64,000 bases of DNA from Octadecabacter algicola (lineage in GTDB: Bacteria; Pseudomonadota; Alphaproteobacteria; Rhodobacterales; Rhodobacteraceae), in assembly GCF_021532625.1 (NCBI RefSeq), contig NZ_JAKGAR010000001.1, positions 1,297,366 through 1,361,365 of the forward strand, in the 5' to 3' direction. How positions within the stretch are numbered: position 1 is the first letter of the stretch; each line of letters starts with the position of its first letter. The notes under the pieces were generated by a model. The model made no database searches. It was not told the origin of the DNA and saw only the letters and a list, made by a program, of their open reading frames with translations. A program made the translations under genes and the position numbers. This document shows, one piece after another, positions 16,515 through 36,182 of the stretch.

Positions 16515-16588
16515 GGCGAGTTGGCGGAGTGGTTACGCAGCGGATTGCAAATCCGTGTACACCGGTTCGATTCCGGTACTCGCCTCCA
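16515..16588 (+). tRNA. tRNA-Cys (GCA)
   Basis: 74 bases including an encoded CCA. Acceptor stem GGCGAGT pairs with ACTCGCC; the anticodon loop is TTGCAAA (anticodon GCA); the T arm is ACCGG-TTCGATT-CCGGT. The gene is intact. Its 3' 45 bases recur exactly at 35956-36000 and, with four changes, at 22278-22321, making it the attachment target of the neighbouring elements. Confidence 0.97.
16544..16588 (+). repeat. att1: attachment site in the tRNA-Cys 3' half
   Basis: 45-base direct repeat covering the anticodon loop through CCA, identical to 35956-36000. The following T also matches. It marks the tRNA-side boundary of the island. Confidence 0.9.
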
Positions 16589-16649
16589 TTTACTTTCAAT
16601 GACTTAGAAAAATTTCGGTAAATGCGCGTCGCGTGCTCTAAACAAATGT

Positions 16650-17666
16650 CTAAACATTCTGTTTTTGTTCTGTTCGCTTTTGCTGCGCTTGGATAGCACG
16701 AATTTTCTGGCGAACCTTCTTTGTGTAGTGCTGCACCATCGCAGGGCTTTGGCCTGTGACTGCCGCCACAAGGTCATCGCCACACCCTGCTTCGACAAGT
16801 TCGCAGGCCGCATTGTAGCGCCATGAGTGGATATCGAAGTCCAACGCGCCGACGCTTTCCCTGACCTTGCGCACGGCCTGAGACGCACCCCGATAGGACC
16901 AACGGTTTGTACCGCGTTCGTTTGTTAGGATGAAAACTGAATGGCGGCTGGCGGCGTCCAAGGCTGTCTGTAGTTCTGGCAGGATCGGAACCCAGAGTTC
17001 CTTTGCCGTCTTATTCTGACGAATAACAAACCCGCCATCTTGAATATCGCCCCAGCGCATTTCCAGCACGTCACCAATGCGCTGGCCAGTGCCGACGCAC
17101 AGCTCCATCACAAGGCGTTCTCTGGTGCCGATGGGGCAGCGGGTGCGGTAAGCTTCCAAAAGCTCATGAGGCCAAGGCTCACGAGCTTTTTTGTCAGTTT
17201 TGATTTCTTGCACACCTTTGGCCGGATTATATTCCGACCACCCCAGATCGACGCAATGTTCCATGAGAACACGCAGAACGCGGAGCGAGTAGTTGGCAAA
17301 GTATGGTTTGTCTGCGTTTGCGTCTCGAAGCCTGATGACGTCCTTGCGCTGCATCTTTGCGGGATTGGCATCCCCCATGATGGATTTGAAAAAACTCAGA
17401 TACTTGTCGTAGTCCAGCGCCGTCCGAGGTTTAAGCCGCCGGTAACGCGGCGACTTATGATAGTGGTCGATCAGCGAAGAAAAGTTGCGGGACGACACAA
17501 ACTTCGACTTAGGTTTGATAGCGCCGTTAAGTATATCGGAATACTCGGCCCAAAACTCGGGTGAGCCAAACTCGTTTTTGATCTTATAGGAGGGCCAGCC
17601 ACGGCGCTGAAAATACAACCCATTCTTTTGGCGGTAGATGTGTTTTGGAAGCTCACGTTTTGCCAT
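16650..17666 (-). CDS. tyrosine-type site-specific integrase (element A)
   Basis: 338 residues from ATG 17666. The C-terminal catalytic domain shows the first arginine in GTGQRIGDVLEMRW, the HxxR box in HSWRYN, and the tyrosine in GQSPAMVQHYTKK. A SAM-like core-binding domain precedes it (about 60-150). The N terminus KRELPKHIYRQKNGLYFQRRG is typical of phage-like integrases of alphaproteobacteria. The stop lies 61 bases from the tRNA-Cys, its probable target. Its start overlaps the 57-residue ORF upstream by 14 bases. Longer upstream readings to 17801 run through that ORF in another frame. Confidence 0.92.
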   Translation of the reverse strand: MAKRELPKHIYRQKNGLYFQRRGWPSYKIKNEFGSPEFWAEYSDILNGAIKPKSKFVSSRNFSSLIDHYHKSPRYRRLKPRTALDYDKYLSFFKSIMGDANPAKMQRKDVIRLRDANADKPYFANYSLRVLRVLMEHCVDLGWSEYNPAKGVQEIKTDKKAREPWPHELLEAYRTRCPIGTRERLVMELCVGTGQRIGDVLEMRWGDIQDGGFVIRQNKTAKELWVPILPELQTALDAASRHSVFILTNERGTNRWSYRGASQAVRKVRESVGALDFDIHSWRYNAACELVEAGCGDDLVAAVTGQSPAMVQHYTKKVRQKIRAIQAQQKRTEQKQNV

Positions 17667-17826
17667 GTCGCATGTCGATCCTATCAAATTCATCGCGATC
17701 ATCACCTCTAAGAAGCTCGATCTCAATACGTCGCCCGTCGATGACCACACGGCTGACCGCCCTGCCCGCGTTCTCAAAGGCGTCGAGCATCTGTAAAGCA
17801 CGTTGCTCAGGCTTAATCGCGGGCAT
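17653..17826 (-). CDS. small ORF coupled to integrase
   Basis: 57 residues (MPAIKPEQRALQMLDAFENA at the start; ends RIDMRHGKT) from ATG 17826 to TGA 17653. It overlaps the integrase start by 14 bases, so the two are probably translated together. The protein is acidic, with a helix then a short beta segment (VSRVVIDGRRIEIELL). Such short ORFs before integrases often encode excisionase-like or regulatory proteins, but no helix-turn-helix is evident here. Confidence 0.6.
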   Translation of the reverse strand: MPAIKPEQRALQMLDAFENAGRAVSRVVIDGRRIEIELLRGDDRDEFDRIDMRHGKT

Positions 17827-18753
17827 GATCACGCCCCCAAATAATAATATTCATTTTTTGCCCGGTAGAAGCTGATTGCAGGACACTTCTCCCTATCAAA
17901 CACTGTTGTTCTAGCCTTGAAGTATGGCGCCCTGTCGCAGTGCTCTGAACCAAGTGAAATTTCCGCAAGGTTGAGTCTAGTAACGGAAAATTCGATTTGC
18001 TGATACTTGACGGGCAAGCCCTCAAGTCGTTGGTAGCCTCCACGTCCACAGTTCATCCCTTTCACTTTTGTTCGCGCGCCAAATGAGGCGAATGGGGAGC
18101 ACCCCATGCAAACCGTTCTGAGGGTGAGTTAGGACATTAGAAGTACCTTTCGCAAATCGCAGATCACGGACGCGACCACTAAATGGATAAGAGCATCTGC
18201 AACAAATGAAACATATCGTTACAGATCGTGGCCCCATTGAATGGATCTAGAGTGCTGGATGGAGTGGGCATTTGAAAAAATGGGGGATCGACGTGTTATA
18301 GCTGATCGCGACCACTAAAAAGATATACTGTCAAGATAGTGTAAGCTCCCTGCCCCAACATCATTATCGAATGAGGTTGGGGCAGGACATCGCGAGAGTA
18401 CGAGCGCACCCCTTTCTAAGGGGTGCTAGGCTCTCCTAACAAATTGAATGCCTCCGGCATCCAGCGCATCGCCAACAGCGACAGTCAACAAGGCCCGCTC
18501 CCAGAACTTGCTTAGAAGGGCGCAGAAACGGCACCTAGAGCGCCGTCGCACCTTGCGGCGAGGGGGCACCGACCAGCGGCACGACTTAAAGCTCTGAGCT
18601 ATGCTCTAAACAGGTTCACGTTCATTCGGGCGAAAAGCAGACCTGCGTTGCTACTGCACTACTCATTGACCCCAATTGAGCTATCCCAAAACTGGGATGT
18701 GAAAGATCGGTAAGACGGCTTAGTTTGGGTCGCAAGCTGTCAAAAAAGCAGAT
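17827..18753. other. gene-poor stretch with two hairpins
   Basis: About 930 bases without a confident gene. It holds an 11-bp perfect stem (CCTGCCCCAAC / GTTGGGGCAGG) at 18349-18386, a second hairpin GCACCCC / GGGGTGC at about 18405-18426, and a short minus-strand ORF ending at 18426. The rest shows nothing recognisable; it may contain decayed coding sequence. Confidence 0.5.
18426..18551 (-). CDS. possible short ORF or gene remnant
   Basis: GTG 18551 to TAG 18426, 41 residues, ending LTVAVGDALDAGGIQFVRRA. The last 25 codons have chromosome-like codon use, unlike the AT-richer surroundings, and two hairpins follow the stop. It could be the 3' tail of a lost gene; no family is recognised. Confidence 0.2.
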   Translation of the reverse strand: MRRRSRCRFCALLSKFWERALLTVAVGDALDAGGIQFVRRA

Positions 18754-19650
18754 TCAAACGTATCGGGACGCTTCAGCTTTCATAATTTCCGTCAGCACTA
18801 AGCTGAACCAGTACAAACCAGGATCAATCAGAATTGAACAAATAGTGTTTGATCCCTGCATGCCGTCAAGTTTGAAGTTTTCATTCGAAATTGCATTGTG
18901 GAAAAGTCGATTTCGACAAGACACCATGAAGCTGGAAACAGATTTGAATTCTATTGAAACCCCATCATTCGGGCTTGCAAACCCCGTATGAGAAATGTTT
19001 GCGTTCGATAAAACGAAGCTATCAAGTTGCGATCTCAGGTGTGCTCGGGCAGACGCGTCAAATTCATCAAATGAATAGTCAATCGACAGGTCGGAAAAAG
19101 AACCACTTTTAGATATTTCTTCTGAAAAATATCTAAGGATAGATAAATCTTGATCTCTCTCGTTCTTTGAAAGTGACTTGATAAATCTGACGGCATCACG
19201 AAAATCGGCGACTTTGGTGGCATAGATCAAAGGCAAAGCGACGGAGACAAGTTCAAAGACACGATAGAGGTGCAAGAAAGCCTCGACGTGCCTATGCTTC
19301 TTTTTTGCAGATAAGCAAAAGCATATCTCAGTTTTTAGCTCTTCCCAGAAGGCTCGGTTGGTGCTTGCTGACCTTGTTAAGTAAGTTCCAGCGTCTATGG
19401 CGCTTAAGTCTCCATCAAATGCCAATTCGACAATCTTTTCAGTTGTATTTCCTGAGAGCCGCCGAGATTTCTGTGAGAGGTAGCAAAACCTGTGCTTAAC
19501 AATCTTACTGCTGGGTTTATGCTCTACGTCCAGCGACCCAGTAAGCAATCTTAAACATTCAAAAACTGGGACACCATTGCTGCGTACTCCAAATGGACTT
19601 GCAAAAGTTCCCGCAGGCAGCGGCTCCAAGAGTCTAAAAGTCGAGGGCAT
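18754..19650 (-). CDS. unknown protein with HEPN-like RNxxxH motif
   Basis: 298 residues, three bases downstream of the DGQHR-like gene and so in one operon with it. No family is recognised by name. The C-terminal helix carries SCRNRLFHNAIS, with R246-N247 and H251, fitting the RNxxxH catalytic signature of HEPN ribonucleases and toxins. A helix at about 121-140 (VEAFLHLYRVFELVSVALP) would suit the preceding HEPN helix. The N-terminal 100 residues are mixed and carry no motif I recognise. Inference: an RNA-cleaving effector or toxin controlled by its partner. The motif is short, so chance occurrence is possible. Confidence 0.5.
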   Translation of the reverse strand: MPSTFRLLEPLPAGTFASPFGVRSNGVPVFECLRLLTGSLDVEHKPSSKIVKHRFCYLSQKSRRLSGNTTEKIVELAFDGDLSAIDAGTYLTRSASTNRAFWEELKTEICFCLSAKKKHRHVEAFLHLYRVFELVSVALPLIYATKVADFRDAVRFIKSLSKNERDQDLSILRYFSEEISKSGSFSDLSIDYSFDEFDASARAHLRSQLDSFVLSNANISHTGFASPNDGVSIEFKSVSSFMVSCRNRLFHNAISNENFKLDGMQGSNTICSILIDPGLYWFSLVLTEIMKAEASRYV

Positions 19651-19653
19651 ACA

Positions 19654-20682
19654 CTACTCTGAAATTGTCTGTTCAAAAAATGCAGCTTCGATTTCTCCAA
19701 CCGACGCTTCAGCGTAGGTATCTATGCTTGAAACGAAAAAGTAGGAAAGTTCGCGTCTTATCTTTCCAACATTGACCTTTGAGGGGTTGATGGCGTCAAA
19801 TGCTTGATCGAACTTTGCTATAACCTGAGCAAAGTCATCGGGCTCAATATTTCTGAGGGCCGCCAAAGATTGTTTTGCGCCAACTGTAAAGCCGATAAGG
19901 TTATTCCCCAGCCGCAACCATGTTCTTACTTCGGCTTGCGTAGAAAGTCTTCCCACCTCCTCAAGAATGGCCGAGAAACTAACATCTTCGTCAGTTAGGC
20001 TCGATTCCATAACCCGCCCAACTAATATGTCATTAAGTTTAGATTCGATTATTTTCTTATTTTGGTTGTTAACGTTATTAGTCAAATAGGCTGTGTAAGC
20101 TTCGATAATATCAGACTTTTTGAATGCTCCAGAGACCTTGATGTTCTCAGTCTCTTTTTCTGTTAGAATCGGAAAATTTACGCCTGAAATATCGATAGCT
20201 CCGCCAGTGAGCATCTCAATTTGGTGCCGCGCCGTCATCGGCTTCTGACCGTTGTTGAGCGTTATCATTCGATAGAGCAGCAGGTCATATTTCTTTGCAA
20301 TGATGACGTTAATATGAATTGGGCGATTGACATCGAACGACAAATCTTCTGACGCATCATGAAGAGTATTCAAGCGCTGCATACCGTCAAGAATATAACC
20401 TTCTTTAATATTCTCGTTTATGAATTTCTGGGCCTGCGATGTACTTAAGTCCTTCGTTGAATCTTGGCTCACGAACGCAAGTGTAATCGGCGGCATAATA
20501 CACCCAGATAGGATGTCTGACTTCAGTCTGGAGTAGAAGCCTTTTGACTGAAGTTTACGCTGTTCGCCAAATCGGTTCAGTAGTGGGTACAGTTCATCTA
20601 AAGCAAACGAATAGTTCGCCTTACCAATTGCGACAATGCTATTGATTACATTGTCACGGTCAGTGCTGAAGACTTCTATCAC
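19654..20682 (-). CDS. DGQHR/ParB-like domain protein
   Basis: 342 residues from a GTG at 20682 with AAGGG upstream. GYILDGMQRLNTLHDA places a D-G-x-Q-R signature at 99-103, and NNGQKPMT lies at 143-150; both are laid out as in DGQHR domains (DndB, DpdB) and the related DUF262/GmrS group with DGQQR. These ParB-superfamily domains act in DNA modification and modification-dependent restriction. The preceding PPITLAF strand (about 64-70) also fits. The C-terminal third is helical. It is first in a two-gene operon with the HEPN-motif protein. Codon use is AT-richer than the chromosome, suggesting transfer. Confidence 0.6.
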   Translation of the reverse strand: MIEVFSTDRDNVINSIVAIGKANYSFALDELYPLLNRFGEQRKLQSKGFYSRLKSDILSGCIMPPITLAFVSQDSTKDLSTSQAQKFINENIKEGYILDGMQRLNTLHDASEDLSFDVNRPIHINVIIAKKYDLLLYRMITLNNGQKPMTARHQIEMLTGGAIDISGVNFPILTEKETENIKVSGAFKKSDIIEAYTAYLTNNVNNQNKKIIESKLNDILVGRVMESSLTDEDVSFSAILEEVGRLSTQAEVRTWLRLGNNLIGFTVGAKQSLAALRNIEPDDFAQVIAKFDQAFDAINPSKVNVGKIRRELSYFFVSSIDTYAEASVGEIEAAFFEQTISE

Positions 20683-21006
20683 ATCGTCACCCTTATTCTA
20701 TTCTCTGCCTACTTGGTATTGTTACACAGGCACGTTGCCGAGCATATGGCGGGGAGCCTCATTTCACCAGGCACATCATGGGTGTTTGAACCAAAGAAAT
20801 TTGGGCATCGGCCAATCCTTGATTGAAGAGGGTCACTGCACATCATGTCAGAGGTCGATCGATGTCCGCTTTGGGCCGTTGGCAGCGGTGTGCCTACACC
20901 TGTGAAGCTGGACTTGCCGCAATGAAGCGAAGTTCAGCTTCGAGCCTATTTTGGCGAATACTGCGTTGTGGTTGGATGCCTGCAATGCGCAAGCCAGCAG
21001 GGAACT
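20683..21006. other. intergenic stretch, no gene seen
   Basis: 324 bases upstream of the DGQHR-like operon. It must contain that operon's promoter, but I see no clear boxes. Part of it (about 20860-20910) has words typical of Rhodobacteraceae spacers (TGTCCGCTTTGGGCC) that partly echo 21360-21385. Confidence 0.35.
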
Positions 21007-21204
21007 TCATAATCCGACTGCAGCCGCGACCACATCAAATCGCTGAATGATGTAATCTAGGCAGAGCATAATTGCCGCCAAGCCGGTGGCATTAGCAGCC
21101 GTAGAATTTCTAGTTGCACCACGGGCTGCTCGCAGAGCTAATAGTGCCGCGACACCAGTCGATACTACGACCAGAATAGTGATAATAATCTTAGCGAATT
21201 CCAT
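21007..21204 (-). CDS. small hydrophobic protein
   Basis: 65 residues with an N-terminal transmembrane helix (IIITILVVVSTGVAALLAL) and a second weakly hydrophobic segment. Ribosome site is weak. No family recognised; it could be a spurious frame in a gene-poor region. Confidence 0.35.
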   Translation of the reverse strand: MEFAKIIITILVVVSTGVAALLALRAARGATRNSTAANATGLAAIMLCLDYIIQRFDVVAAAVGL

Positions 21205-21620
21205 AACTTATCGTCCCATTTTGTATCTGTTTTTTAAAAATCAATTTGGCATGAGGATAGAACCGGCACCAGCATTAAAACGCGCATACACAATTTCGAG
21301 CTTCGCGTTCTACAATGAGTGAACCAATCCACCGCATCAAAGAACCACCGTTTTGGGGCCGAATGACCAAATCGGACATTGGGCGCTTGCACCGAAGGTC
21401 TGAAAGGCCCCGCATTGCAGTCCTTGGTCTCCCATAGGTGCCGAACGACCGCTTCAGAGAAGCTGCGGCGCAGCGTCGGACCAACTCACGAACGACAGAT
21501 TTGGGCCGATTTTCTCCGCAATGGGCAAGCTTTTCCAATAGCATAAATCGTTCTTGCGAATTATTGCGAGAAGGAACAATTTAGACATTTAAGAAATCGA
21601 ACATATTGGGGAAAACTGTG
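21205..21620. other. intergenic stretch, no gene seen
   Basis: About 400 bases. A minus-strand frame at 21275-21544 is open but reads like spacer DNA rather than protein. It probably carries the promoter for the two small genes that follow. Confidence 0.35.
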
Positions 21621-21851
21621 GTGAACGAAAGTATATTCCTATTTATAGTGGTCATCTACTTGGCTCCGCTTGCATTTATCTTATGGGCTATTTTGTCGGC
21701 AGTATTTGCGCTTAGGCGGATTGCAAGTGCATTAGAAAATCAAAGTACTGGCACATACCAGAAATCTCAAAAGGCAGTTTCGTTGCCAAAAAAACAGGAA
21801 CCTAGAATCACTAAAGGAGACGATCCAGCCTTCAAGTACATCCCTAGGTGA
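21621..21851 (+). CDS. small membrane protein
   Basis: 76 residues from GTG 21621 (in-frame TTG 21606 and GTG 21618 are alternatives; GGGGAAAA lies upstream). One strong transmembrane helix (IFLFIVVIYLAPLAFILWAIL) followed by a basic, disordered tail rich in K, S and P. No family recognised. It probably forms a pair with the gene 40 bases downstream. Confidence 0.45.
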   Translation: MNESIFLFIVVIYLAPLAFILWAILSAVFALRRIASALENQSTGTYQKSQKAVSLPKKQEPRITKGDDPAFKYIPR

Positions 21852-21891
21852 ACGAGAATTGTCCTGTGCTCACCCGAGAAGTTGAAACACG

Positions 21892-22128
21892 ATGACCGAC
21901 GAACATCCGCAAAAGAAGCGCCGATGGCCTTGGGTCGTCGGTTTCTTGATTTTACTTGCTATGTGTAGCGATGACGACGACGATAATGATCGCCCTCGAC
22001 GGTACTGCTATGACTTTTCAAACAACGAAACTCTTTGTTTTGCTAAGCCGCTACCAGCCGATCAATTTTGCTATCTTGAGGAAGACGACAAAGTCAGGTG
22101 CTATGATGAACGCAATTCCAATCGATAG
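21892..22128 (+). CDS. small anchored protein with acidic and cysteine-rich tail
   Basis: 78 residues: a basic N terminus (KKRRWPW), a short membrane helix (VVGFLILLAMC), an acidic run SDDDDDNDR and a tail with four cysteines that could form disulfides outside the membrane. Weak ribosome site. No family recognised. The cysteine LLAMC is not a convincing lipobox. Confidence 0.45.
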   Translation: MTDEHPQKKRRWPWVVGFLILLAMCSDDDDDNDRPRRYCYDFSNNETLCFAKPLPADQFCYLEEDDKVRCYDERNSNR

Positions 22129-22277
22129 AAGAAACAGAAACTGAAGCCCAATGCTTCTGGCTCACAGAAACCTGCTTCATCAACTCTGGATGCATCTAAA
22201 CATTCTCGCAATGTTCTCACTGCCAAAGCAGCCTACTCTAAGCAAAAAATCACATAAACTCAAAAAGATGCTTAGTC

Positions 22278-22321
22278 TTGCAAATCCGTGTACACGAGTT
22301 CGATTCTCGTACTCGCCTCCA
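22278..22321 (+). repeat. att2: variant tRNA-Cys 3' end
   Basis: 44-base copy of the tRNA-Cys 3' half, identical to att1 except for four bases in the T stem. The changes are paired: C51-G63 becomes G-C and G52-C62 becomes A-T, so the stem still folds. It is the junction of elements A and B. Confidence 0.9.
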
Positions 22322-22483
22322 CTAAAACCACAATATGCTGTGTGTTTTTCCTAATACCCCCATCAAGACCACAAGCCGCAAGCTGTACACAAATCGTACA
22401 CACTCCGCATGCAGTTTTCGCTGCACGTTACCCATTTTTCCGTATAGCATTAAATAGAAGGTGTTTGAGGGGAGCGGTACACG

Positions 22484-23899
22484 ATGAGCTACGGCGCAAA
22501 GACTGTAACTGTGCACAAAAAGCTAAAGCTCGACCGACGTGCTAACAGCACGAATTGGTATGCACGATTAACGCTTGAGAACGGCAAACGAGTTATCAAA
22601 AGCACTAAGACAGACGACTTAGAAGACGCGAAAGAAATTGCGTTAGCGTTATATTATGAGACGCAAGCACGCATCAAAAACCAGCTTCCTGCCCAAACAC
22701 GCAAGTTCAAACACGTTGCTGCTTTTGCCATCAAACAAATGCAGAACGAACTTGCCGCTGGCAACGGCAAGCAAGCATACAAAGACTATATCTCCGCACT
22801 GCAACGCTGGCTCATTCCATACTTTGGCACCTTAGATGTAGCAAAGATCGATTTGGCAGCACTGACTGCGTTTGACGCTTGGCGCACTGAGCAAAACAAC
22901 AAGCCGTTTTCACAAAGCGGCATCAATAACCACAACGCGGCTTTAAACAGAGTTCTGGATCAAGCCGAATTGAATGGCTGGATTGTAAAATCAATGCGCC
23001 CCACCCTGCTAAACAAGGGGACCAAAAGCGAAAGTAGAGGCAGCTTTACGGACGCTGAATACACGAAAATATACACAGCTCTGCGAACTTGGCACAAACA
23101 AACTCAGAACAGTAAAGCTGTCGCAACACGTGAAGTTCTAAGGAACTATGTACTGTTCTTGGCAAACACTGGCGTGCGACATGGCACCGAGGCGCTTGGG
23201 TTGAAATGGCGCAATATTGAGTGGGAAACAGTTAAGGACGAGCGCTATTTGATGGTGAACGTCGACGGCAAAACGCGAAAACGCAGCGCTGTCGCACGCG
23301 ACAAAGTCGAAGAATATTTGGACCGTCAGCGCAAGTTTAACGCGCTACTGACCGACGGAACCTTGGATGAGTTGATTGCGGCGCGTAGCGATGAGTTTGT
23401 TTTTACGACGCGGCTTGGCGACGTTGCGAATATCTTTAGCCTAAATCGCGCCTTCAATGCTCTTCTAGACACTCTGGACCTGAAACATGGCGCGGATGGA
23501 AAACCACGCACTTTATACAGCTTCCGACATTATTACGCGACGCGCGATCTAAAGCGTGGCGTTAGCTCGCATGCACTTAGCAGACAGCTGGGCAACAGCA
23601 CAGCGATGGTCGACAAACATTACAGCAAATATAGCCCGCTGCTTAACGCTGAAATGCACAGCGCACGCAACATGCGCAGCGAAACCAAGTCGACGCCTAA
23701 AACGGGCGCACAAAGCGTCGTTGACGTCGCGTTTACGATGCTTGCGGATGCGCAGCTAGATGAGCATGGGTTGATTGCTGTACTTGGCGTCGGTCAGAAC
23801 GGTTATTTTGCGACGGACGAAATCAAGCTCAAAGCACTTTCAGCAAAAAGTGCTGAGTTAATCACCAACGATACGTTTCTATTAATTTTGAATGGATAA
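22484..23899 (+). CDS. tyrosine-type site-specific integrase (element B)
   Basis: 471 residues. The catalytic domain is complete: arginine in NTGVRHGTEALGLKWRNI, HxxR in YSFRHYYATRDL, tyrosine in STAMVDKHYSKYS. An N-terminal Arm-type beta segment (TNWYARLTLENGKRVIKSTK) and a core-binding domain (about 80-170) precede. The tail after the tyrosine (about 400-471) is longer than usual and unassigned. It faces away from att2, whose 3' end lies 163 bases upstream. An intrinsic terminator follows directly. Confidence 0.93.
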   Translation: MSYGAKTVTVHKKLKLDRRANSTNWYARLTLENGKRVIKSTKTDDLEDAKEIALALYYETQARIKNQLPAQTRKFKHVAAFAIKQMQNELAAGNGKQAYKDYISALQRWLIPYFGTLDVAKIDLAALTAFDAWRTEQNNKPFSQSGINNHNAALNRVLDQAELNGWIVKSMRPTLLNKGTKSESRGSFTDAEYTKIYTALRTWHKQTQNSKAVATREVLRNYVLFLANTGVRHGTEALGLKWRNIEWETVKDERYLMVNVDGKTRKRSAVARDKVEEYLDRQRKFNALLTDGTLDELIAARSDEFVFTTRLGDVANIFSLNRAFNALLDTLDLKHGADGKPRTLYSFRHYYATRDLKRGVSSHALSRQLGNSTAMVDKHYSKYSPLLNAEMHSARNMRSETKSTPKTGAQSVVDVAFTMLADAQLDEHGLIAVLGVGQNGYFATDEIKLKALSAKSAELITNDTFLLILNG

Positions 23900-23922
23900 G
23901 CAGGCGCAGGGTTCGCGCCTGC
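23900..23922. terminator. bidirectional hairpin between convergent genes
   Basis: Perfect 8-bp stem GCAGGCGC / GCGCCTGC with a 7-base loop, filling the gap between the integrase stop (23899) and the convergent stop at 23930. T-runs are short, so termination strength is uncertain. Confidence 0.65.
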
Positions 23923-23929
23923 TCGATGT

Positions 23930-24352
23930 TTAAGCAGCCTTGCGCTTGTTCAACCCAGCTTCGATTGCAGCATCCAGTTCGCCGCTACGTGCGGCTGCCA
24001 AAAATGCACTCAGTGCAGTTTCGACTTCCTTCAGCGTTTTAACAAACACAGCGTTCCCGTTGCCAAGATCAAGCACTTTGCTGCCGTAGCGACACTGCAC
24101 ATACCAACCACTGTCTTGCTCAAAAAACCAAGCACGCACCTGCCGCATTTTCTCAATGGCAACTTTTTCGCCTTGCTCGTTCTTCGCCCAGCCCTTTGCA
24201 CGCACCATGTGCGTTTCTCCCTTAAGCGCCGCGGCTAGTACTTTTACTTGTTCTTCGATTGCAACGACAAGCTTTGCACGTCTTTGCTGCGTCGGATCAC
24301 TTTTGCTTACCCGCTTAACTGTCTTCAAAGTTAGTTTCGTTAGTTCCGTCAT
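23930..24352 (-). CDS. DUF6641-like protein
   Basis: 140 residues from ATG 24352, chosen for its strong site AAGGAG 8 bases upstream; a longer reading to 24424 exists. The central WFFEQDSGWYVQCRYGSKVLDLGNGNAVFV segment and the ELDAAIEAG tail match proteins I know as DUF6641, found on plasmids and integrative elements near AAA ATPases. The N terminus is a basic helix. Function unknown. It follows the AAA gene across a strong hairpin. Confidence 0.6.
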   Translation of the reverse strand: MTELTKLTLKTVKRVSKSDPTQQRRAKLVVAIEEQVKVLAAALKGETHMVRAKGWAKNEQGEKVAIEKMRQVRAWFFEQDSGWYVQCRYGSKVLDLGNGNAVFVKTLKEVETALSAFLAAARSGELDAAIEAGLNKRKAA

Positions 24353-24434
24353 TCGTTCGCTCCTTGCAAATAGATGCTGCAAGTGTGTTTTCAAAATGAG
24401 CTTTGAGCTATCGGAAATCACCATAAAACACTAT

Positions 24435-24461
24435 AAAGCCTGTACAAAATGTACAGGCTTT
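24435..24461. repeat. 12-bp perfect inverted repeat
   Basis: AAAGCCTGTACA / TGTACAGGCTTT with a 3-base loop, between the AAA gene stop (24468) and the DUF6641-like start (24352). The stem is strong enough for a terminator or attenuator, but no T-run follows. As duplex DNA it could be an operator. Confidence 0.75.
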
Positions 24462-24467
24462 GCTGGT

Positions 24468-25196
24468 TTAAACTAAGCGCAACGGCGGTTTGGTTTTTGG
24501 TGGAGGATTGGCGTTTCGGATCGTTTTATTCACGGCTGTCTGGATCGGTCGGAAGTCGACTGTCGTTGTCTTGATTGGTAGCTGAGCAGTAATTAGTTCC
24601 AACACCTTGTCTCGCCCTACATGTAATCCTGCACATGCCAATTTTGACTGAACCAGTGGAACAAAGTTGCTTGGCGCTTGCGGGCGGACTTCGAGCTGGG
24701 TGTTGAACCGACTAACTAGTGCTGGTGAAAACACTTTACTTGTCGCTATGCGATCAGACACTTTTACGTTCGTTGTTGCCAGTATCATGCTTCGCAACCC
24801 GTCAGAGTTACTCCAATCAATAAACGCCGTAAGTTCTCGCTGTTGCATCCCAGAAAGCTCGTCCAATTCATCAATAATCAAAACGGGACAGTTTGAATAA
24901 AAATGCGCTAAGTTATACCAACCTAGAAGCCATTTGCTGTTCAGTTTTTTGGCAACCTCCTTGTCCTTACAGTTCAAAAATATTAACCCGTCCTCTGTCA
25001 ACGCCGCAGTACTGCATCGTCCTTGCGCAATCGCCTTTGCAATTGTTGTCTTGCCCGTGCCGGGCAAGCCCCACAGAAGCAAATTATCGGTGTTGGCGGG
25101 ACTTAAAAAATCCCGCGCTTCATCCTCGGTAAACTTGTCAGCGAAAACACATTGCTGAAAGCTAACGGCTTCATCACGCTCCCACTTATCGCTCAT
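24468..25196 (-). CDS. AAA+ ATPase of element B
   Basis: 242 residues from ATG 25196, which overlaps the TGA of the upstream gene (TGATG). Walker A GLPGTGKT at 43-50, Walker B VLIIDELDEL at 105-114, a sensor-1-like ATTN (about 141-144) and an arginine-finger-like VSRFNT. The lid domain follows (about 185-230). It resembles clamp-loader or Holliday-branch-migration type AAA proteins of phages and integrative elements rather than IstB/TniB transposition ATPases, although the latter cannot be ruled out. It may act in replication or packaging of the element. Confidence 0.72.
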   Translation of the reverse strand: MSDKWERDEAVSFQQCVFADKFTEDEARDFLSPANTDNLLLWGLPGTGKTTIAKAIAQGRCSTAALTEDGLIFLNCKDKEVAKKLNSKWLLGWYNLAHFYSNCPVLIIDELDELSGMQQRELTAFIDWSNSDGLRSMILATTNVKVSDRIATSKVFSPALVSRFNTQLEVRPQAPSNFVPLVQSKLACAGLHVGRDKVLELITAQLPIKTTTVDFRPIQTAVNKTIRNANPPPKTKPPLRLV

Positions 25197-25993
25197 CACG
25201 CTGCCTCCAGATCAATGTTTGCCGATTCAGAAATCAACTTAGTCGCGTTTGCAGCATCTTCCTTTTGCTTGCGCTCCAATTCATCGGCGCGTTCCTTGCT
25301 GTCCTGCACGTCAAGCGCTTTGCCAACACGTGCCAGTGCCTGCTTAGTCAGCGCCGCATTATCTACAGTTGTAACAATGCCAAACGTTCCGTCCGCATTT
25401 TTCCGCACGACTGCCACACAGTATTCAGCATCTGGTTCCGCAGCGCCCATCGAAGCGATGTGGGCAGACGCAACAGGTGCTAGCTGGTCGGTGAACTTAA
25501 GTTCGGCACGAGCGCGCGCGATATAGTCGACTGGAACTTGTCCGTTTCCACTGCGACGCACTGCATCAATGCCGCCTGCTCCGATGATCCAGTCTACAAA
25601 ACTAAGGTCAGTATTTGTGTGCAGGTCCTCAGCGAATGCGATGCGAAGCACGCGAGCATATGTGCTTTCACGCTTATTGTTCAGATTACCGCAAACGAAG
25701 CGGATAACTTTGAGTTCAAGACTAGTTGCTTGGGTTGCGTGCTTCGCTTTGCTGCTGCGGGTCATCTCGCTCAGCTTGTAATCAAACAGCTCACGAACCG
25801 GCTTCGGCTCTTCTGCAGTTTTTAGTTCGACAAGTACAGCGAATGCATTGGATAGCACGTCATAGACGGCGTTATTTGCGCGGGTCAGAAGTGCATCAGC
25901 AGACTTGAAGCGCTTTTGAAGCTTTGTGAGGTCGCTAATGGCTTTGATGGCAACGTCGTTGTTCAAGACTGAGTTTTCAGTTGTGGTAGTCAT
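25196..25993 (-). CDS. unknown protein, first gene of the AAA operon
   Basis: 265 residues from ATG 25993, with a near-ideal site AAAGGAAAC just upstream; the frame continues to 26113 but without support. Mostly alpha-helical, including a central domain (KVIRFVCGNLNNKRESTYARVLRIAF, about 90-125) and an alanine- and lysine-rich coiled-coil C terminus (about 225-260). I do not recognise the family. The tight overlap with the AAA gene suggests a partner or loader protein. Confidence 0.65.
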   Translation of the reverse strand: MTTTTENSVLNNDVAIKAISDLTKLQKRFKSADALLTRANNAVYDVLSNAFAVLVELKTAEEPKPVRELFDYKLSEMTRSSKAKHATQATSLELKVIRFVCGNLNNKRESTYARVLRIAFAEDLHTNTDLSFVDWIIGAGGIDAVRRSGNGQVPVDYIARARAELKFTDQLAPVASAHIASMGAAEPDAEYCVAVVRKNADGTFGIVTTVDNAALTKQALARVGKALDVQDSKERADELERKQKEDAANATKLISESANIDLEAA

Positions 25994-26139
25994 TTTGTTT
26001 CCTTTCAAGATCGAAACAAGATTTGGGATATTTCCCTTTTCGCCGAGGCTTGATTGCCAGCGACATATACAGAATACGTCAAATATATGCGCTTTGCGGG
26101 CTACCAAAAACACACCGACCTGATATGATATAAAATCTA

Positions 26140-26156
26140 TTAACCAACTGGTTTAA
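26140..26156. promoter_or_regulatory. candidate operator between divergent genes
   Basis: Inverted repeat TTAACCA-ACT-GGTTTAA, imperfect at one base, ends 5 bases before the ATG at 26162 and lies about 150 bases upstream of the divergent operon (start 25993). The position would suit a repressor controlling both. Confidence 0.4.
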
Positions 26157-26161
26157 AACAA

Positions 26162-26989
26162 ATGATTGAAAACAGATATGCTGTTGGACGTGTGTTTTAC
26201 GTTCATGCGCCACCCTTCAAAGGCAGAAGGTCAAAAACAACAGGTGAATTCCTGTCAAAACGACTCGCTCGAATCAAACAACCGTTCGTCGGCGCTGAGC
26301 CGTGGCAGTGTTCGATTTATTACTTTTGGTGGGAGTTCTTGCGCCGTCACGAAGGCTATAAGGACTGTTGCCTGCGCGGTGGTAAGGGACAGTATCGACA
26401 GCTATTCAAAGACTTTGGTGACATTCACGCTTGTGGCGTCGAGGACTTTTGGGCGTGGTGGACGACAAAGCGCGATGATGGGCTGAAACGCGGTGAGTAT
26501 CTTTTTGCTGAACCACCTGCTCGGCAATTGCGCGCAACCGATGGGGTGTTGAACACCCAAACTACGGACACACTGCTCGTTGAAATACCACTAGAAGTCA
26601 GAACTCCGCAGTTAGTAAAAATGTTTAGGAAAATGCTCCAAGATCACAGTAGCGAAGTCCGTTCAGCCCGAAAGATTAGCCGAGCACGTTATCCTGTCGC
26701 GACCAGCGTTCCACTTCATACCCTGCACCTCTCTCTGAGAGCATTGGACACTTGGAATGAGCATCTTCACCGCAAGAAAAAATATGAGCAATGCGACATT
26801 GCTGGCATCTACGTCAACGAAGTCGTGCATGGAGAAACCATCGCAAAGTTGATGCGTGCAGACTTGCCATACAAAGATGTTGAACGTGAAGTCCGCAGAC
26901 GCAAAACGCAGGCGTTCAATCGCTATTTGACTGCCGCACAAGAATATGTCGAATACGCAAGTATCGGGAGCTTCCCTCGAAGAGGTTAG
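26162..26989 (+). CDS. unknown protein, Trp- and Arg-rich
   Basis: 275 residues. The N-terminal half is rich in aromatic residues (WQCSIYYFWWEFLRRHEGY, FWAWWTTKRDDGLKRGEYLF) and the C-terminal half is basic with helices (DVEREVRRRKTQAFNRY). I do not recognise it. Similar Trp-rich proteins occur beside DUF6641/AAA genes on integrative elements, so a DNA-binding role within the element core is a reasonable guess. Divergent from the AAA operon; the short AT-rich gap probably holds both promoters. Confidence 0.55.
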   Translation: MIENRYAVGRVFYVHAPPFKGRRSKTTGEFLSKRLARIKQPFVGAEPWQCSIYYFWWEFLRRHEGYKDCCLRGGKGQYRQLFKDFGDIHACGVEDFWAWWTTKRDDGLKRGEYLFAEPPARQLRATDGVLNTQTTDTLLVEIPLEVRTPQLVKMFRKMLQDHSSEVRSARKISRARYPVATSVPLHTLHLSLRALDTWNEHLHRKKKYEQCDIAGIYVNEVVHGETIAKLMRADLPYKDVEREVRRRKTQAFNRYLTAAQEYVEYASIGSFPRRG

Positions 26990-27007
26990 TGGATGCTTTT
27001 ATAGCCT

Positions 27008-28702
27008 TCATCCAATCAATGAAGCATTCAAGAATGGGAGCATAAAATCATAGACGTCTTCATACTTGTCTTCCGACAACAGCGACCTCTTGCTATCAGG
27101 CTCAATCAGTCTCCCAGGCGGTACAATCCTATTCAAGCTGCCCGTAGCTAATATCAGTTGACTACCGACTGGTTTGTTTTCGATCGCAAAACGTATCAGG
27201 CGCTTTGAGTTTTCGGGGTCTTGATCTTGTTGTAGTGGTGTATCAACGACGATCGGGCAGAAGCACGAAGTGGAGAATTCATCTATAGTATGAAGAACCG
27301 CATAGTAGTATGCGAGTAGCAAGCGCGGGTTAAGACTACCAGTTTCGCTAATTACTGGACGCACTTTCCCCCAGACCGATGATGGAATGTTGGTAATATT
27401 TAGCAACCCGCAAAACTCTCTTAGTTTCGCATCATAAAATTCAACTATTTTTTTCTTTCGTGAAGCCTTGGTTAGGGAATCCATCTCAGCTTTTGCATCA
27501 CTAGCAGTGACGTTTAATATGCCTATCTCCCCATCCAACACCCGTTCTTCGTCTTCAAACGATTTATCCACTAGCCGTTCGCTCTCGTCTTTCAACATAT
27601 CGGCAAGCTTCACCTCTCCTCGGGTCTCTTGAAGAATTGCCTTGATCGAAGAAATACGCTTTTCAAGACTAGGCACACTTCTTAAAACCTTCTCGATGTC
27701 TCCATCGTGCTTTGCGACCTTCGCGCGTGCCTCGATTAGGACAATACGACATGCATCAGCGTCGTTAATTAATCCAAATCGATTGGCAAAGTCGTTGTCA
27801 TGAACAGTACTGCAAACTGGACAGACGATTTCATCGTCCGAAAAATCTGTGGCAAACTTGATGTCTGAGTTGAGTTCGCTAAGAACTCGTTCAGCAATAT
27901 CGACTTCTTCCTGTGCAATCGAACGCAGTGACTGCAAGTCCGAGACTTTCGCACGAAGATCATCATAGAGCGATTGCAGAGCATTTTGCTCTTTCAGCAA
28001 CGCTTGGATGCGGTCTTTGAAGACTTCAACGTCCAAAGCAATGCCAAGCTTCTTTCGCTTGTCAGAGAACCGCTTTTTAGCCTTGAGCAATGCGCCCTTC
28101 TCATCTGAAAGCAACTTCCGCGAAGTTATTGCCTCATCCCGCTTGCTCTTTGCTATATAGTACTGGCGCGGCTTGATGCCCGTGTGGAACTCAGCAATCT
28201 CACTTTTATACGCTGGGACCATACCTAAGCCCGAAAAAGACGCCCAAGTGTCGCTCCACCCATTGTCTTGATCTACATAAAACGGCAGGAAACAGAACGC
28301 AGGAGGTGGCGTAATTGACTTTCCGCCCTTTTGTTTCAGGGAGATATGGAAGTCCAAAAGTTCACCAATTTTTGGCGCAAGTCCGGCAACTACTGAACTC
28401 GCAGTCCACAGCAGTTTCTTTGCATCATCAAAAAGAGCGAAGTAGCCTTCCTGGCGTAAGATATAATATGTTGCGCCGCCTACTGTAAAACGAAGTAGCA
28501 GTGCTACTTTTGCATTTTTCCACGCCTCTGGTGTCTTGTAAGGGTCGGCACCAAGTGCGGAGTACAGAGATTTTACTAAACTGGATTTTCCAAACTCGTT
28601 GTCTGCAACGATTGAGGTAACGTCTGGATCAAAGCTCTCAGTTCTCGCTCTTCTCTCTTGCGTCGACAGCAGCCAGAGCTTTTCGAATTTCAGCCTTTTC
28701 AT
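27008..28702 (-). CDS. SMC/Rad50-like ATPase, Lamassu or ABC-3C type
   Basis: 564 residues. An N-terminal P-loop NEFGKSS at 35-41, coiled-coil arms (about 185-280 and 320-420), a zinc-hook-like CPVC at 294-297 with H301 at the turn, and a C-terminal Walker B CPIVVDTPLQQ (482-492) give the Rad50/SMC layout in short form. It follows the DUF4297-like nuclease gene by 41 bases with AAGGA before the ATG. Nuclease plus hooked SMC ATPase is the core of Lamassu (LmuA-LmuB) and of ABC-three-component defence systems, where the ATPase senses DNA ends or replication intermediates. No middle component gene is visible. Confidence 0.72.
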   Translation of the reverse strand: MKRLKFEKLWLLSTQERRARTESFDPDVTSIVADNEFGKSSLVKSLYSALGADPYKTPEAWKNAKVALLLRFTVGGATYYILRQEGYFALFDDAKKLLWTASSVVAGLAPKIGELLDFHISLKQKGGKSITPPPAFCFLPFYVDQDNGWSDTWASFSGLGMVPAYKSEIAEFHTGIKPRQYYIAKSKRDEAITSRKLLSDEKGALLKAKKRFSDKRKKLGIALDVEVFKDRIQALLKEQNALQSLYDDLRAKVSDLQSLRSIAQEEVDIAERVLSELNSDIKFATDFSDDEIVCPVCSTVHDNDFANRFGLINDADACRIVLIEARAKVAKHDGDIEKVLRSVPSLEKRISSIKAILQETRGEVKLADMLKDESERLVDKSFEDEERVLDGEIGILNVTASDAKAEMDSLTKASRKKKIVEFYDAKLREFCGLLNITNIPSSVWGKVRPVISETGSLNPRLLLAYYYAVLHTIDEFSTSCFCPIVVDTPLQQDQDPENSKRLIRFAIENKPVGSQLILATGSLNRIVPPGRLIEPDSKRSLLSEDKYEDVYDFMLPFLNASLIG

Positions 28703-28743
28703 ACTGTTTGGTCCTTAAACTTCGGATAAGTGATTTAAAACTC

Positions 28744-29826
28744 TCAAGCTTCTTTGTTTGTATACGTTTCATATAGAACCATAGCCTTTATTCGTTCCGT
28801 CGAAATCAACGCCAATTCTTGTTGTGCATATTCAGCGACACTGCCATTGACTTGGTCGACCAAGTCAGTAAGACCAAGAAGTTGATATTGCTCCTCGTCC
28901 AGCAATTTACTTATCTTACGTCTGACTCTTCGAGTTGCTTCATTAGGATTCAACACCTCAACACGGTAAGCCCCCCAGTGCCTTCCAATCTTAACCACTT
29001 CCAAGACAGGCAAAGTCAGTTGCGGCGCAATTACCTCCCAATTGGGGCAATCAACGACTTCACTTACTGTTGCTATCCAGTTTTCCGCATCATTTCTGGT
29101 AACACCGCGATCCCTCACGACTTCATCGAAATCGCTCAGCTCACTTGTTGCTCGCGACTTGCGCGTGCATTCATCGGCGACAGCAGTAAACAATGCTGAA
29201 ACGGAAAATGAAACTTCACCAAGCTGTGCAGCAACAAAAGCCTCCAGCTTCCCTTTTGCATGAGTGTCCATATCTTCAAGACTGAGATCAGAACGCCTGA
29301 AATGAATGAGATCCGTGCGAATAACCGACTCATTCGGAAATTGCGCTTCGAGCTTTGCTTTGAGTTTTCCCAAGTCATCAACGGTGCATTCCTCCAAACA
29401 AAACTTAGCTTTATTCTGAGAGAATTTCATAGGTGCATTTGAGACAAAGGTTGTTGCTTCGACGGTGTCGCCAAATGCAACAACGTTGTCGTACATCTTT
29501 CCAATAATGGACGGCAGCATAGAATCCGACTTTTTAGATTTTCTCTGTCCTGTTAGCGAAGCGTGTGTCCACTCTCCGCTTCCTTTTGTTTTAACTTGAT
29601 AGAAGCGAACAGAGGTTGGTTCAGAACTGCTGTTGAATACGGCAACATCGTCGTGAAATTCAAAGACTACTGCGTAGTCACCATCCAGAACATGCCGTTC
29701 CAGTATCAATGCCATGCCAAACAGCGCTTGATAGCGAAAACGGGCAGTTGTTCGTGCACCACTATCCTCCCGCAAAGGGGTTTGAACCAACTTTTCTTTC
29801 AGATCGCTCAAATCGATGCACTCCAC
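28744..29826 (-). CDS. DUF4297/Cap4-like nuclease, LmuA-like
   Basis: 360 residues from GTG 29826. The N-terminal domain (about 20-180) opens with DSGARTTARFRYQALFGM, then E56, D59-D60 and FYQVKTK (75-81) give a PD-(D/E)xK nuclease core of the DUF4297 type seen in Cap4 and LmuA. The C-terminal 100 residues (about 255-360) are a helical domain that may be the ABC-3C C-terminal module contacting the ATPase. It is the first gene of the pair. The start is uncertain because the ribosome site is poor. Confidence 0.7.
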   Translation of the reverse strand: MECIDLSDLKEKLVQTPLREDSGARTTARFRYQALFGMALILERHVLDGDYAVVFEFHDDVAVFNSSSEPTSVRFYQVKTKGSGEWTHASLTGQRKSKKSDSMLPSIIGKMYDNVVAFGDTVEATTFVSNAPMKFSQNKAKFCLEECTVDDLGKLKAKLEAQFPNESVIRTDLIHFRRSDLSLEDMDTHAKGKLEAFVAAQLGEVSFSVSALFTAVADECTRKSRATSELSDFDEVVRDRGVTRNDAENWIATVSEVVDCPNWEVIAPQLTLPVLEVVKIGRHWGAYRVEVLNPNEATRRVRRKISKLLDEEQYQLLGLTDLVDQVNGSVAEYAQQELALISTERIKAMVLYETYTNKEA

Positions 29827-30022
29827 TGCTCAATGACACAACCATTGCGCGTGCAGTGAGTTTTGGCAAGTACATGCAACTCCTTCCAGCCCTTTGTGAA
29901 CTAACAAAATTTCCACTTTGGATGCGTGCTATATACACATCTCATCGAAGCTCTAAGGCTCCATTGGTAGTTAGGCGCTGCCTTTGTCCTCTAATGATAA
30001 ATATATCAAAGAGGACAACACT

Positions 30023-30163
30023 ATGAACACGAAACCAAACGCAACATCGAACAGACGCAAAGCAAAAAGCCGCGAAACGTCCCTAGATCCAAAACCACCC
30101 GTAAAACCCATCTCCGTCGCCGCTCCTAGCAAACCCAAGAAGCCAAAATACAATGGACTTTGA
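30023..30163 (+). CDS. small basic Lys/Pro-rich peptide
   Basis: 46 residues (MNTKPNATSNRRKAKSRE at the start; ends KPKKPKYNGL), very basic and disordered. Strong ribosome site AAAGAGGA 7 bases upstream. Its end overlaps the start of the 123-residue ORF by 11 bases, suggesting coupling. A TGATA/TATCA dyad lies at 29995-30008, just ahead of the ribosome site. Confidence 0.5.
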   Translation: MNTKPNATSNRRKAKSRETSLDPKPPVKPISVAAPSKPKKPKYNGL

Positions 30164-30524
30164 GCAGCAGCAAAAACTGACGCTTGTCGAACTAGTCTAC
30201 GAGACGCTTGCCGAACATGACCTTGTCCTAACAGCAGAGGATTTTAGCACCGACTGGTGCAGGAAGAGCAAAAGTTGGTACGCTGAACGAAAGCACAACG
30301 GGCGAGGGTTTAGCGTTACGGCTGCTATTGACTGCCTTGATGCGGTTAACATGAAATGTGCAATCCTAAGCTTGAGCCAGCGGCGAATGGGTGGGCTTTT
30401 AGAAGCCGAGATCAATGCACTTGGCGACATCAGTGAAGCGCTGAAAACTTACTTGGCGGAACAACATCGCATTACCGAAGTCGCACTGCGCAAGACACCA
30501 ACATCGAAAATGTTAAGAAAGTAG
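30153..30524 (+). CDS. small protein, possibly DUF6626-like
   Basis: 123 residues. The segment LVYETLAEHDLVLTAEDFSTDWCRKSKSWYAERKHNG resembles the DUF6626 group, in which an FSxxWxxKSxSW/Y unit forms a helix-turn-helix-like fold. The C-terminal helix is amphipathic. It overlaps the preceding 46-residue ORF and precedes a small recombinase by 128 bases. Function unknown; the family name is tentative. Confidence 0.5.
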   Translation: MDFEQQQKLTLVELVYETLAEHDLVLTAEDFSTDWCRKSKSWYAERKHNGRGFSVTAAIDCLDAVNMKCAILSLSQRRMGGLLEAEINALGDISEALKTYLAEQHRITEVALRKTPTSKMLRK

Positions 30525-30652
30525 TATTCTCTAACATTATTGTCTAACCACGTTTGTTTTCAATGACTTAGCTAAACTCAAAATAGTGGTCGTCCACAAA
30601 AATGTTAGAATTTACAATGCATTACAGTGAAACAATACATTTCAGGTGATGC

Positions 30653-31225
30653 ATGAAACAAGCCAAGCTACTGACAGATGCAGAACGCAAGCGCGTTGCA
30701 GCAATAATCAACGCACATCGCTACACAACGAGGAACCATGCAATTTTTGCACTCAGCTTTTATGCTGGGCTGCGTGCATGTGAGGTTGCAGCCTTGCGCG
30801 TGGGCGACGTCTTCGATGAAACTGGCACGGTACGCGATACGATCTTTCTAGAGGCAGCGCAGACCAAAGGCGACGAAGCGGCAACGGTGCTTGTGAGCAA
30901 AAAGTTGAGCAAGGAACTGTGTGCGTATGCAGCGCATTATCCTCGACATTGCAGCAATCAGAACGCCTCGCTGTTTTTCAGCGCAAAAGGCGGCGGCTTT
31001 AGCCCACAAACAATCGTCAACTTGTTCGCGCGCTTTTACAAGCTCGCAGGGATCAAAGGCGCTAGCTCGCACAGTGGTCGTCGTCAGTTTTTGACCGAGC
31101 TAGCAGACAAGGGTATCAACGCTCGTGTTATCCAAGCACTTGCGCGCCATAAGCACCTAAACACCACGATGCGCTACATCGACCTAAACGAAAACAAGCT
31201 GCGCAATGCAATTGAACTCGTTTGA
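30653..31225 (+). CDS. short tyrosine recombinase (catalytic domain only)
   Basis: 190 residues, a XerC/D-like catalytic domain without the N-terminal core-binding domain. First arginine in YAGLRACEVAALRVGDV, lysine region SAKGGG, HxxR in SSHSGRRQFL, LARHKHLNTTMRYIDLN with the tyrosine. All catalytic residues seem present. Stand-alone catalytic domains of this size occur in integrons, plasmids and element-borne resolvers. It could resolve element dimers or mobilise nearby cargo. Confidence 0.8.
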   Translation: MKQAKLLTDAERKRVAAIINAHRYTTRNHAIFALSFYAGLRACEVAALRVGDVFDETGTVRDTIFLEAAQTKGDEAATVLVSKKLSKELCAYAAHYPRHCSNQNASLFFSAKGGGFSPQTIVNLFARFYKLAGIKGASSHSGRRQFLTELADKGINARVIQALARHKHLNTTMRYIDLNENKLRNAIELV

Positions 31226-31890
31226 GGTCAAATTCGCCAAAAACGCTACATTTGACGCGGTGACGAAGTCCAAATGATAAATAAATTAGTCAGCTAAGGC
31301 TGTATGAAAAACTGAACCCAAGGTTAGCACGCCAGTCGAAATTGTGCCGCAAGTCCGTTCTGATGTGTGACGGTACGCAAACGCATTGTCAGTTATGCGC
31401 TTCAACAGTCTACCCTGCCATTGTGCGCAGGATGCTTAAAGTACGCCGCCTATGCGAGACCGTATCTTACTGTTGTCGGAATGGTTGTAGCGCAGAGATG
31501 CGTGAATGAAGTGAGACGGAAAGACAAGCTGCATTGCAGCACCCGTCATCGTGTTGGAACAGCTATGCTACACCAGCCCAACACGTGCGTTGATATCCCA
31601 ATAATAGAGATGATAGCAAAACCTGCTCTTCCAATATTTGGTTTGGGGAGTGTAGCCCATAATGTGACGAGTAAAGTTGCCAAGTTGGATTGAGCCTAAA
31701 CAGGCTTGATCCATTGGCTCTAAGTAAAGCCAAAAAAAGACAATAAAACATTATCGCATAATTATATTCTGATGATCGAAATAAATATGCATTGAAGTGA
31801 AGCTGATGCTTTGCGCAGCAAAGTTGAAGTATCACAAAGATGCTTGTGAAACCGCAAAGCGGTTACGCAATTACCACGCCAAATTGATAG
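31226..31890. other. gene-poor stretch before the restriction-modification pair
   Basis: 665 bases. An open plus-strand frame at 31367-31693 has no ribosome site and does not look like protein. The only structure seen is the first copy of the 54-base direct repeat at 31803-31856. It may hold remains of a replaced cassette. Confidence 0.45.
31803..31856 (+). repeat. direct repeat, left of the restriction-modification pair
   Basis: 54 bases starting CTGATGCTTTGCGCAGCAAAG, matching 33687-33740 at 43 of 54 positions by eye. Same orientation. Confidence 0.75.
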
Positions 31891-32889: not shown

Positions 32890-33028
32890 TATTACCCCCA
32901 AAGAGACTCTAATACATTGTAACGCCGTTAGTCTTTGACGCAAGAAGAAGTACAGTCATGTCTGGCTAGTTCAGACATTGAAGGCTACCGTTAGCCCCGA
33001 GCACATGTTGGGTAGGCAAGAGAGCGAT

Positions 33029-33670: not shown

Positions 33671-33686
33671 GACGCCTCAGTAAATT

Positions 33687-33740
33687 CTGATGCTCTGCAA
33701 AGCAAAGTAGAAGGATTCCAATGGTGCTTATCAAACCGCA
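33687..33740 (+). repeat. direct repeat, right of the restriction-modification pair
   Basis: Second copy of the 54-base repeat, 16 bases after the HNH stop and 67 bases before the dGTPase stop. Confidence 0.75.
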
Positions 33741-33807
33741 CGACCGCGGCGAAACGAGTTAGAGACGCAGGATTGGTTGCCGAAAAAATGCTAAGAATGA
33801 CACTCAT

Positions 33808-35100: not shown

Positions 35101-35165
35101 AGCAAGTCCTTACTAACATAAATTCAATGAGAAACACGTATGTGAACAAAGGCTATCATGACTTG

Positions 35166-35955: not shown

Positions 35956-36000
35956 ATTGCAAATCCGTGTACACCGGTTCGATTCCGGTACTCGCCTCCA
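35956..36000 (+). repeat. att3: far end of the island
   Basis: 45 bases identical to the tRNA-Cys 3' end at 16544-16588; the next T also matches. It marks the right end of element B. Confidence 0.9.
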
Positions 36001-36182
36001 TCTTTTCCCGAACTATTGAGTAATTGTCGGCATTTCAGGTGCTAGGCTTTGATCGCTTCGGTTCGCACCAATCGGGGACATCCAGTTTAAGATACTTTGT
36101 GGCGGGTGAACGAGATTTGAGCAGCATGACAATTATCATTTGCGTCACACACGGGCTAAGCGCCCGTCATGATGCAAACCAT

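Follow-up and report, generated by a model that had tools for sequence, protein, structure and literature searches.

A two-gene module in the genome of Octadecabacter algicola is probably a divergent relative of Dazbog, consisting of a DzbA-like protein (A) that likely serves as sensor and latch, followed by a DzbB-like partner (B) predicted to be a HEPN ribonuclease (RNase) effector. The module lies in the stretch of DNA analysed here (the window, 64,000 nucleotides (nt) of contig NZ_JAKGAR010000001.1). The pair itself is of the known Dazbog type; what is new is a divergent clade that crosses phyla, together with a case for DzbB as a HEPN effector.

A preliminary description of the window had proposed a two-gene defence module at this place, made up of a "DGQHR/DUF262" protein and a protein with a HEPN-like motif. 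Our analysis supports such a module, with a role in defence that we infer: a protein of DUF262 type with a ParB fold, and a partner that bears the HEPN motif. Both genes are open reading frames (ORFs) on the minus strand (Table 1), three bases separate the stop of A from the start of B, and the motifs pointed out earlier are found where they had been placed: D99-G-M-Q-R103 and N143-N-G-Q-K-P-M-T150 in A, and R246-N-R-L-F-H251 in B. Gene A has a GTG start preceded by an AAGGG-type site, and scans for promoters and terminators returned matches at chance level only.

Protein A matches the PADLOC DzbA model with 167 bits (E 1.7e-49), the best stretch aligning residues 2-243 to profile positions 2-254 of 393. 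At E ≤ 1, the only other PADLOC match is DpdB (0.019); PD-T4-2_A is not among the matches, and a PD-T4-2 identity was therefore rejected. Likewise, the DGQHR half of the earlier label was dropped because no NCBIfam DGQHR model matches A at E ≤ 1, while the DUF262 half stands. Canonical DzbA from Pseudomonas sp. DY-1 is 31% identical to A over 178 amino acids (aa; E 9e-21). Pfam GmrSD_N (PF03235) scores 20.3 bits, under its gathering cut-off of 33.2, and is a precomputed domain in some A homologues. The AlphaFold2 model of A (predicted local distance difference test score, pLDDT, 80.3) has the ParB/Srx-like fold with a DGxQR pocket that marks DUF262/GmrSD_N proteins, in line with the ParB-like fold first suggested for it; its structural neighbours are BrxU, ParB, Noc, Srx and SspE, and BrxU forms the top Foldseek row (prob 0.95, E 0.015). 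D99, G100, Q102 and R103 are invariant across 37 aligned A sequences, the window's own included.

For B, an alignment of 64 proteins (again including the window's) retains H251 in all 64 and R246 and N247 in 63 each, with E108, Y129 and E133 also invariant (64/64). Since these residues stand out amid a mean column identity of 27%, and DGxQR is invariant in A, the motifs of both proteins are more than chance occurrences. The AlphaFold2 model (pLDDT 86.7) contains helices at 99-117 and 121-146, a long insert, a helix at 235-249 that ends in the Rx4H motif, and a helix at 267-294, an order that resembles the HEPN layout described in PMC3710099 (cited, like all papers here, from accessible excerpts). 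RNRLFH agrees with the conserved R-x4-6-H motif with a polar residue after the arginine, and E133, within helix 121-146, provides the conserved acidic residue of helix 2. B is thus predicted to carry a HEPN fold. HEPN domains with an intact Rx4-6H have been proposed as metal-independent RNases (PMC3710099), and the invariant histidine of B fits catalysis. Csm6/Csx1 RNases have a helical HEPN domain with R-x4-H (PMC3710099) and appear among the VIA rows for B, in places 2, 5 and 7. In PDB and BFVD, Foldseek found nothing at E ≤ 0.001 for the B model, a phage protein row labelled "RNaseLS-like" being non-significant (E 3.3), and a sequence search of solved structures with the A or B alignment returned unrelated rows only.

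The two genes stay together across large distances. A profile scan of representative genomes with A yielded 67 loci, distributed over Pseudomonadota, Bacteroidota, Cyanobacteriota and Bacillota, and an intact B follows directly in 63 of them. In the remaining four, the contig ends inside B (L026) or inside A (L068), B is a fragment (L049), or B is missing (L035). This survey of gene neighbours, which the preliminary description had called for, therefore shows the pairing to be kept rather than homologues that occur separately, with A alone in one locus. There (L035, 5004-6422, Lysobacter soli), A runs into a different C-terminal part with no recognisable partner, the sole clear solo among the 67. 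With longest-ORF starts, 54 of the 63 intact loci have an intergenic gap between -8 and +8 nt. Distances between A proteins correlate with those between their partners (r=0.80 over 62 loci; maximum of 2000 permutations, 0.14), showing that the proteins co-diverge, and B diverges faster, with a mean pairwise identity of 26% versus 44% for A. Among B homologues, 28 of 49 apparently share a genome record with an A homologue (among the 120 A homologues listed).

The pair also occurs in IMG/VR, where ten contigs carry A: eight have an intact B, one (L094) has B broken over three frames, and one (L099) ends inside A. In two of these (L092 and L093), a gene for a phage portal protein, identified by scan in L092, precedes the pair, indicating a prophage-like contig. 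No matches were obtained in the viral contigs scanned with a close B alignment, in phage records, or in Escherichia coli genomes (DNA search), and the B profile found the window's own copy only in 385 genomes of the class.

The preliminary description knew of no described system with this pairing, a claim that we reject, as the DzbA match leads to Dazbog (DzbA/DzbB). Moreover, PD-T4-2 combines DUF262 and HEPN (PMC10952713), and operonic links between HEPN families and ParB-fold genes had been pointed out in 2013 (PMC3710099). Canonical Dazbog pairs were identified on plasmid p.1 of Pseudomonas sp. DY-1 (500 bits for DzbA, 248 bits for DzbB) and in Moritella marina (355 and 170 bits). The window pair shares with them two adjacent genes in identical order, a DzbA-like DUF262 protein, and a two-part signature in the C-terminal part of the partner. 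It differs in the length of its proteins (342/298 aa versus 392/395 aa in the DY-1 pair), in a DzbA match confined to the profile stretch given above, and in a partner that hardly matches the DzbB model (18.6 bits, E 2.6e-4, a marginal and local match over 35% of the profile). Across genomes, the DzbA model at E ≤ 1e-10 has two hits in 349 Pseudomonadota genomes (window genome included) and six in 198 genomes of the phylum of G003 (G003 included). The DzbB model detects 4 of the 64 window-type partners at E ≤ 0.01 and, at the same threshold, finds nothing in five genomes with window-type pairs.

The signature that joins the partners has two parts, F-x3-Y-x3-E and, 60-170 residues further on, R-x4-H. 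In DY-1 DzbB, FFYVYQVFE and RNFIFH represent its halves in the C-terminal domain. All 16 DzbB or DzbB-side proteins tested contain it, against 0.54% of their shuffled versions and none of 118 neighbour proteins, and 62 of the 64 window-type partners have it too. Nine of the 16 adjoin a DzbA-type gene and seven are database homologues of DY-1 DzbB selected by sequence alone; the signature was formalised only after many of them had been inspected, and they amount to about four independent groups, because eleven belong to one sub-family. The DzbB model matches all 13 that were scanned (E 5.8e-7 or better). Two further matches to this model, which had no part in defining the signature, are divided: L069 (E 2e-9, the only hit in 299 Pseudomonadota genomes) has it, while L070 (E 7.4e-4, the only and marginal hit when 392 genomes from the G001 phylum were scanned) lacks it. 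The L069 protein (718-2076, about 450 aa) has no DGxQR ORF of at least 150 aa inside its 3.5-kilobase (kb) locus and is possibly a DzbB-like protein without DzbA.

As the signature is common to canonical and related DzbB proteins and the window-type partner, DzbB is probably a HEPN protein. Comparisons of profiles give weak matches that place Rx4H on Rx4H, both between window-type B and canonical DzbB (hhalign P 0.0094; 0.042 realigned) and between window-type B and the HEPN_RiboL-PSP alignment (P 0.0033), with reversed controls at 0.058-0.4. In addition, one BLASTP alignment of window B with DY-1 DzbB spans both halves of the signature (E 0.029). Weighing against these links, window-type B does not match a second DzbB group (P 0.34), and the DzbB groups themselves are unmatched to the HEPN alignment (P 0.34 and 0.19). 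The literature searched, which left most subscription papers and the original Dazbog paper outside its scope, contains no statement that DzbB is HEPN; within it, the two terms "Dazbog" and "HEPN" occur together in PMC10952713 only, and "DUF262" and "HEPN" in two papers. The accessible text of PMC10952713 assigns DUF262 to PD-T4-2, Menshen and Dazbog, and HEPN to several systems that include PD-T4-2 but not Dazbog.

Other DUF262 genes are also paired with HEPN genes. In 115 alphaproteobacterial genomes, PF18735 (HEPN_RiboL-PSP) has five hits (L075-L079), all five directly after a DUF262 gene with DGxQR. The three of these DUF262 genes that were scanned match NsnA, which we take to be a Menshen component, and PD-T4-2_A. 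These pairs are classed by the DUF262 gene alone, because their HEPN partners lack a matching PADLOC system model: those of L075-L078 have no PADLOC match at E ≤ 0.001, and the L079 partner matches a CARF-HEPN model. The window pair resembles PD-T4-2 and NsnA-type systems in that a DGxQR protein of DUF262 type precedes a known or predicted HEPN protein bearing RNxxxH (PMC10952713), but the DUF262 proteins of those systems belong to another branch, their partners are HEPN_RiboL-PSP proteins of 165-236 aa that Pfam recognises, and the window proteins match none of the PD-T4-2, NsnA or HEPN_RiboL-PSP models.

Such parallel pairings leave room for the window pair to be a separate, unnamed DUF262-HEPN system outside the Dazbog lineage, its DzbA match reflecting the shared DUF262 domain only, as the marginal, local match of B to the DzbB model would allow. 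We regard this as unlikely, given that A scores far higher against DzbA than against the general domain model GmrSD_N, with DpdB as the only further PADLOC match, and that the window partner and canonical DzbB have the two-part signature and gene order in common. Somewhat less probable still is type IV restriction, in which the DUF262-type protein would itself recognise and cut modified phage DNA, while the partner, with a HEPN-like motif that is not catalytic, would serve structure or specificity as a subunit. BrxU, SspE and GmrSD, which act on modified DNA, have the same ParB/Srx-like DUF262 domain with its DGxQR pocket (PMC10952713), and BrxU heads the Foldseek list for A. However, these enzymes are held to cut by means of a DUF1524 nuclease domain, which is part of the protein itself or of its partner (PMC10952713); Pfam gives no DUF1524 match in either window protein at E ≤ 1, and an Rx4H histidine without exception in 64 proteins fits catalysis.

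For the pair as a divergent Dazbog, we propose a mechanism drawn from reports on Dazbog and from the RNase proposal for HEPN domains. Dazbog protection is lost upon mutation or deletion of its DUF262 gene, and phage escape implicates methylases in its sensing (PMC10952713, PMC12409349); the system has been classed under abortive infection (PMC11680222), and a 2026 review (PMC12926258) lists its mechanism as unknown. In uninfected cells, A would keep the RNase B inactive. With nucleoside triphosphate bound in its DGxQR pocket, A may respond to a cue tied to the phage, for which DNA modification by a phage methylase is the most plausible candidate, and would then release or activate B. The freed B would cut RNA through R246/H251, stopping the infected cell before phage release. 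A plain rule that 5-methylcytosine (5mC) triggers the system is disfavoured by C5 cytosine methylase genes in the vicinity: they make up 4 of 118 immediate neighbour genes (a count with no baseline for other genes), precede two canonical pairs, and include one in the window (31891-32943). Those two canonical pairs (L073, 1298-5368; L086, 2-3700) lie right behind the methylase genes, and in Moritella an MvaI/BcnI restriction enzyme gene is close by as well. Tentatively, and with rather less confidence than in the kinship with Dazbog, Dazbog may be a modification-gated RNase system with a HEPN DzbB, and the window clade, canonical Dazbog and PD-T4-2-type pairs would form one broad class, in which a type IV restriction sensor (DUF262) no longer serves to cut phage DNA but has been rewired to unleash RNA cleavage and shut down the cell.

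The pair lies inside a mobile element, as first described, bounded by a tyrosine integrase and att-like repeats of tRNA-Cys (Table 1). The repeat comprises the last 46 nt of tRNA-Cys, including one base beyond the gene. Element 1 (16589-22322, 5.7 kb) contains the integrase and the pair; the only other ORF above 100 aa is antisense to the integrase, shorter ORFs being outside the scan. In its right part lies an ORF of 81 aa (21606-21851, plus strand) whose N-terminal region includes a hydrophobic stretch. Element 2 (22322-36001, 13.7 kb) follows in tandem, with an integrase, LmuB, LmuA, the cytosine methylase and further genes. The 87% identity of the middle repeat, versus the exact outer one, suggests separate insertions of the two tandem elements (16544-36001).

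Table 1. Features of the gene pair and of the tandem elements at tRNA-Cys (window positions).
Feature	Position	Strand	Remarks
DzbA-like protein (upstream, A)	19654..20682	minus	342 aa; DUF262/GmrSD_N-type ParB/Srx-fold domain; DGMQR 99-103; LNNGQKPMT 142-150
DzbB-like protein (downstream partner, B)	18754..19650	minus	298 aa; predicted C-terminal HEPN domain ~99-294; E108, Y129, E133, RNRLFH 246-251
tRNA-Cys gene, integration site	16515..16588	plus	ARAGORN and Rfam
Tyrosine integrase, element 1, adjoining tRNA-Cys	16650..17801	minus	Pfam Phage_integrase 5e-17
Left att repeat, 3' end of tRNA-Cys	16544..16589	plus	46-nt direct repeat D1
Middle att-like repeat, 87% identical; element 1 right end / element 2 left end	22277..22322	plus	D1
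Right att repeat, 100% identical, element 2 end	35956..36001	plus	D1

This setting bears on a third explanation, a HEPN-type toxin-antitoxin module that would mainly stabilise the element, with a DzbA-like antitoxin, a HEPN toxin and defence as a by-product, which is suggested by close, likely coupled genes that form the sole non-integrase cargo above 100 aa of a small integrative element (the antisense ORF aside) but is the least probable of the three, a ParB/DUF262 domain not being, to our knowledge, a usual antitoxin. It is also at odds with the reported anti-phage activity of Dazbog, which depends on its DUF262 gene (PMC10952713). An anti-phage reading is supported by the presence of the pair in IMG/VR contigs and by Lamassu genes in the neighbouring element.

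These Lamassu-type genes (27008-29826, minus strand) encode LmuB (E 5e-204) and LmuA with a Cap4 nuclease domain (E 7e-68). A third integrase ORF, a short one (30653-31225), lies in element 2; next to it, at 30553-30576, is a weak copy of the sequence that directly follows the left att. The C5 methylase is followed by a divergent gene (32978-33670) with an HNH-like CxxC seen by eye, together a possible restriction-modification pair (31891-33670). Near the right end, a 430-aa protein (33808-35100) resembles, by eye, an HD-domain dGTPase. Within the genus, the tRNA-Cys site is often used: several genomes have a second copy of 44-48 nt of the tRNA 3' end, and in one (L112), a sequence like window positions 22278-22924, the start of element 2, comes directly after tRNA-Cys. 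No empty tRNA-Cys site was demonstrated; 3 of 10 genomes of the genus contain the right flank, and in the closest of them it lies on a different contig from the tRNA.

Window-type systems are probably under-counted, because the DzbB model sees so few of their partners in a clade that spans several phyla. Should DzbB prove to be a HEPN ribonuclease under the restraint of a DUF262 sensor, a few point mutants could test the mechanism of Dazbog, and the DUF262 fold would count among sensors whose gated enzyme is an RNase and not a DNase.
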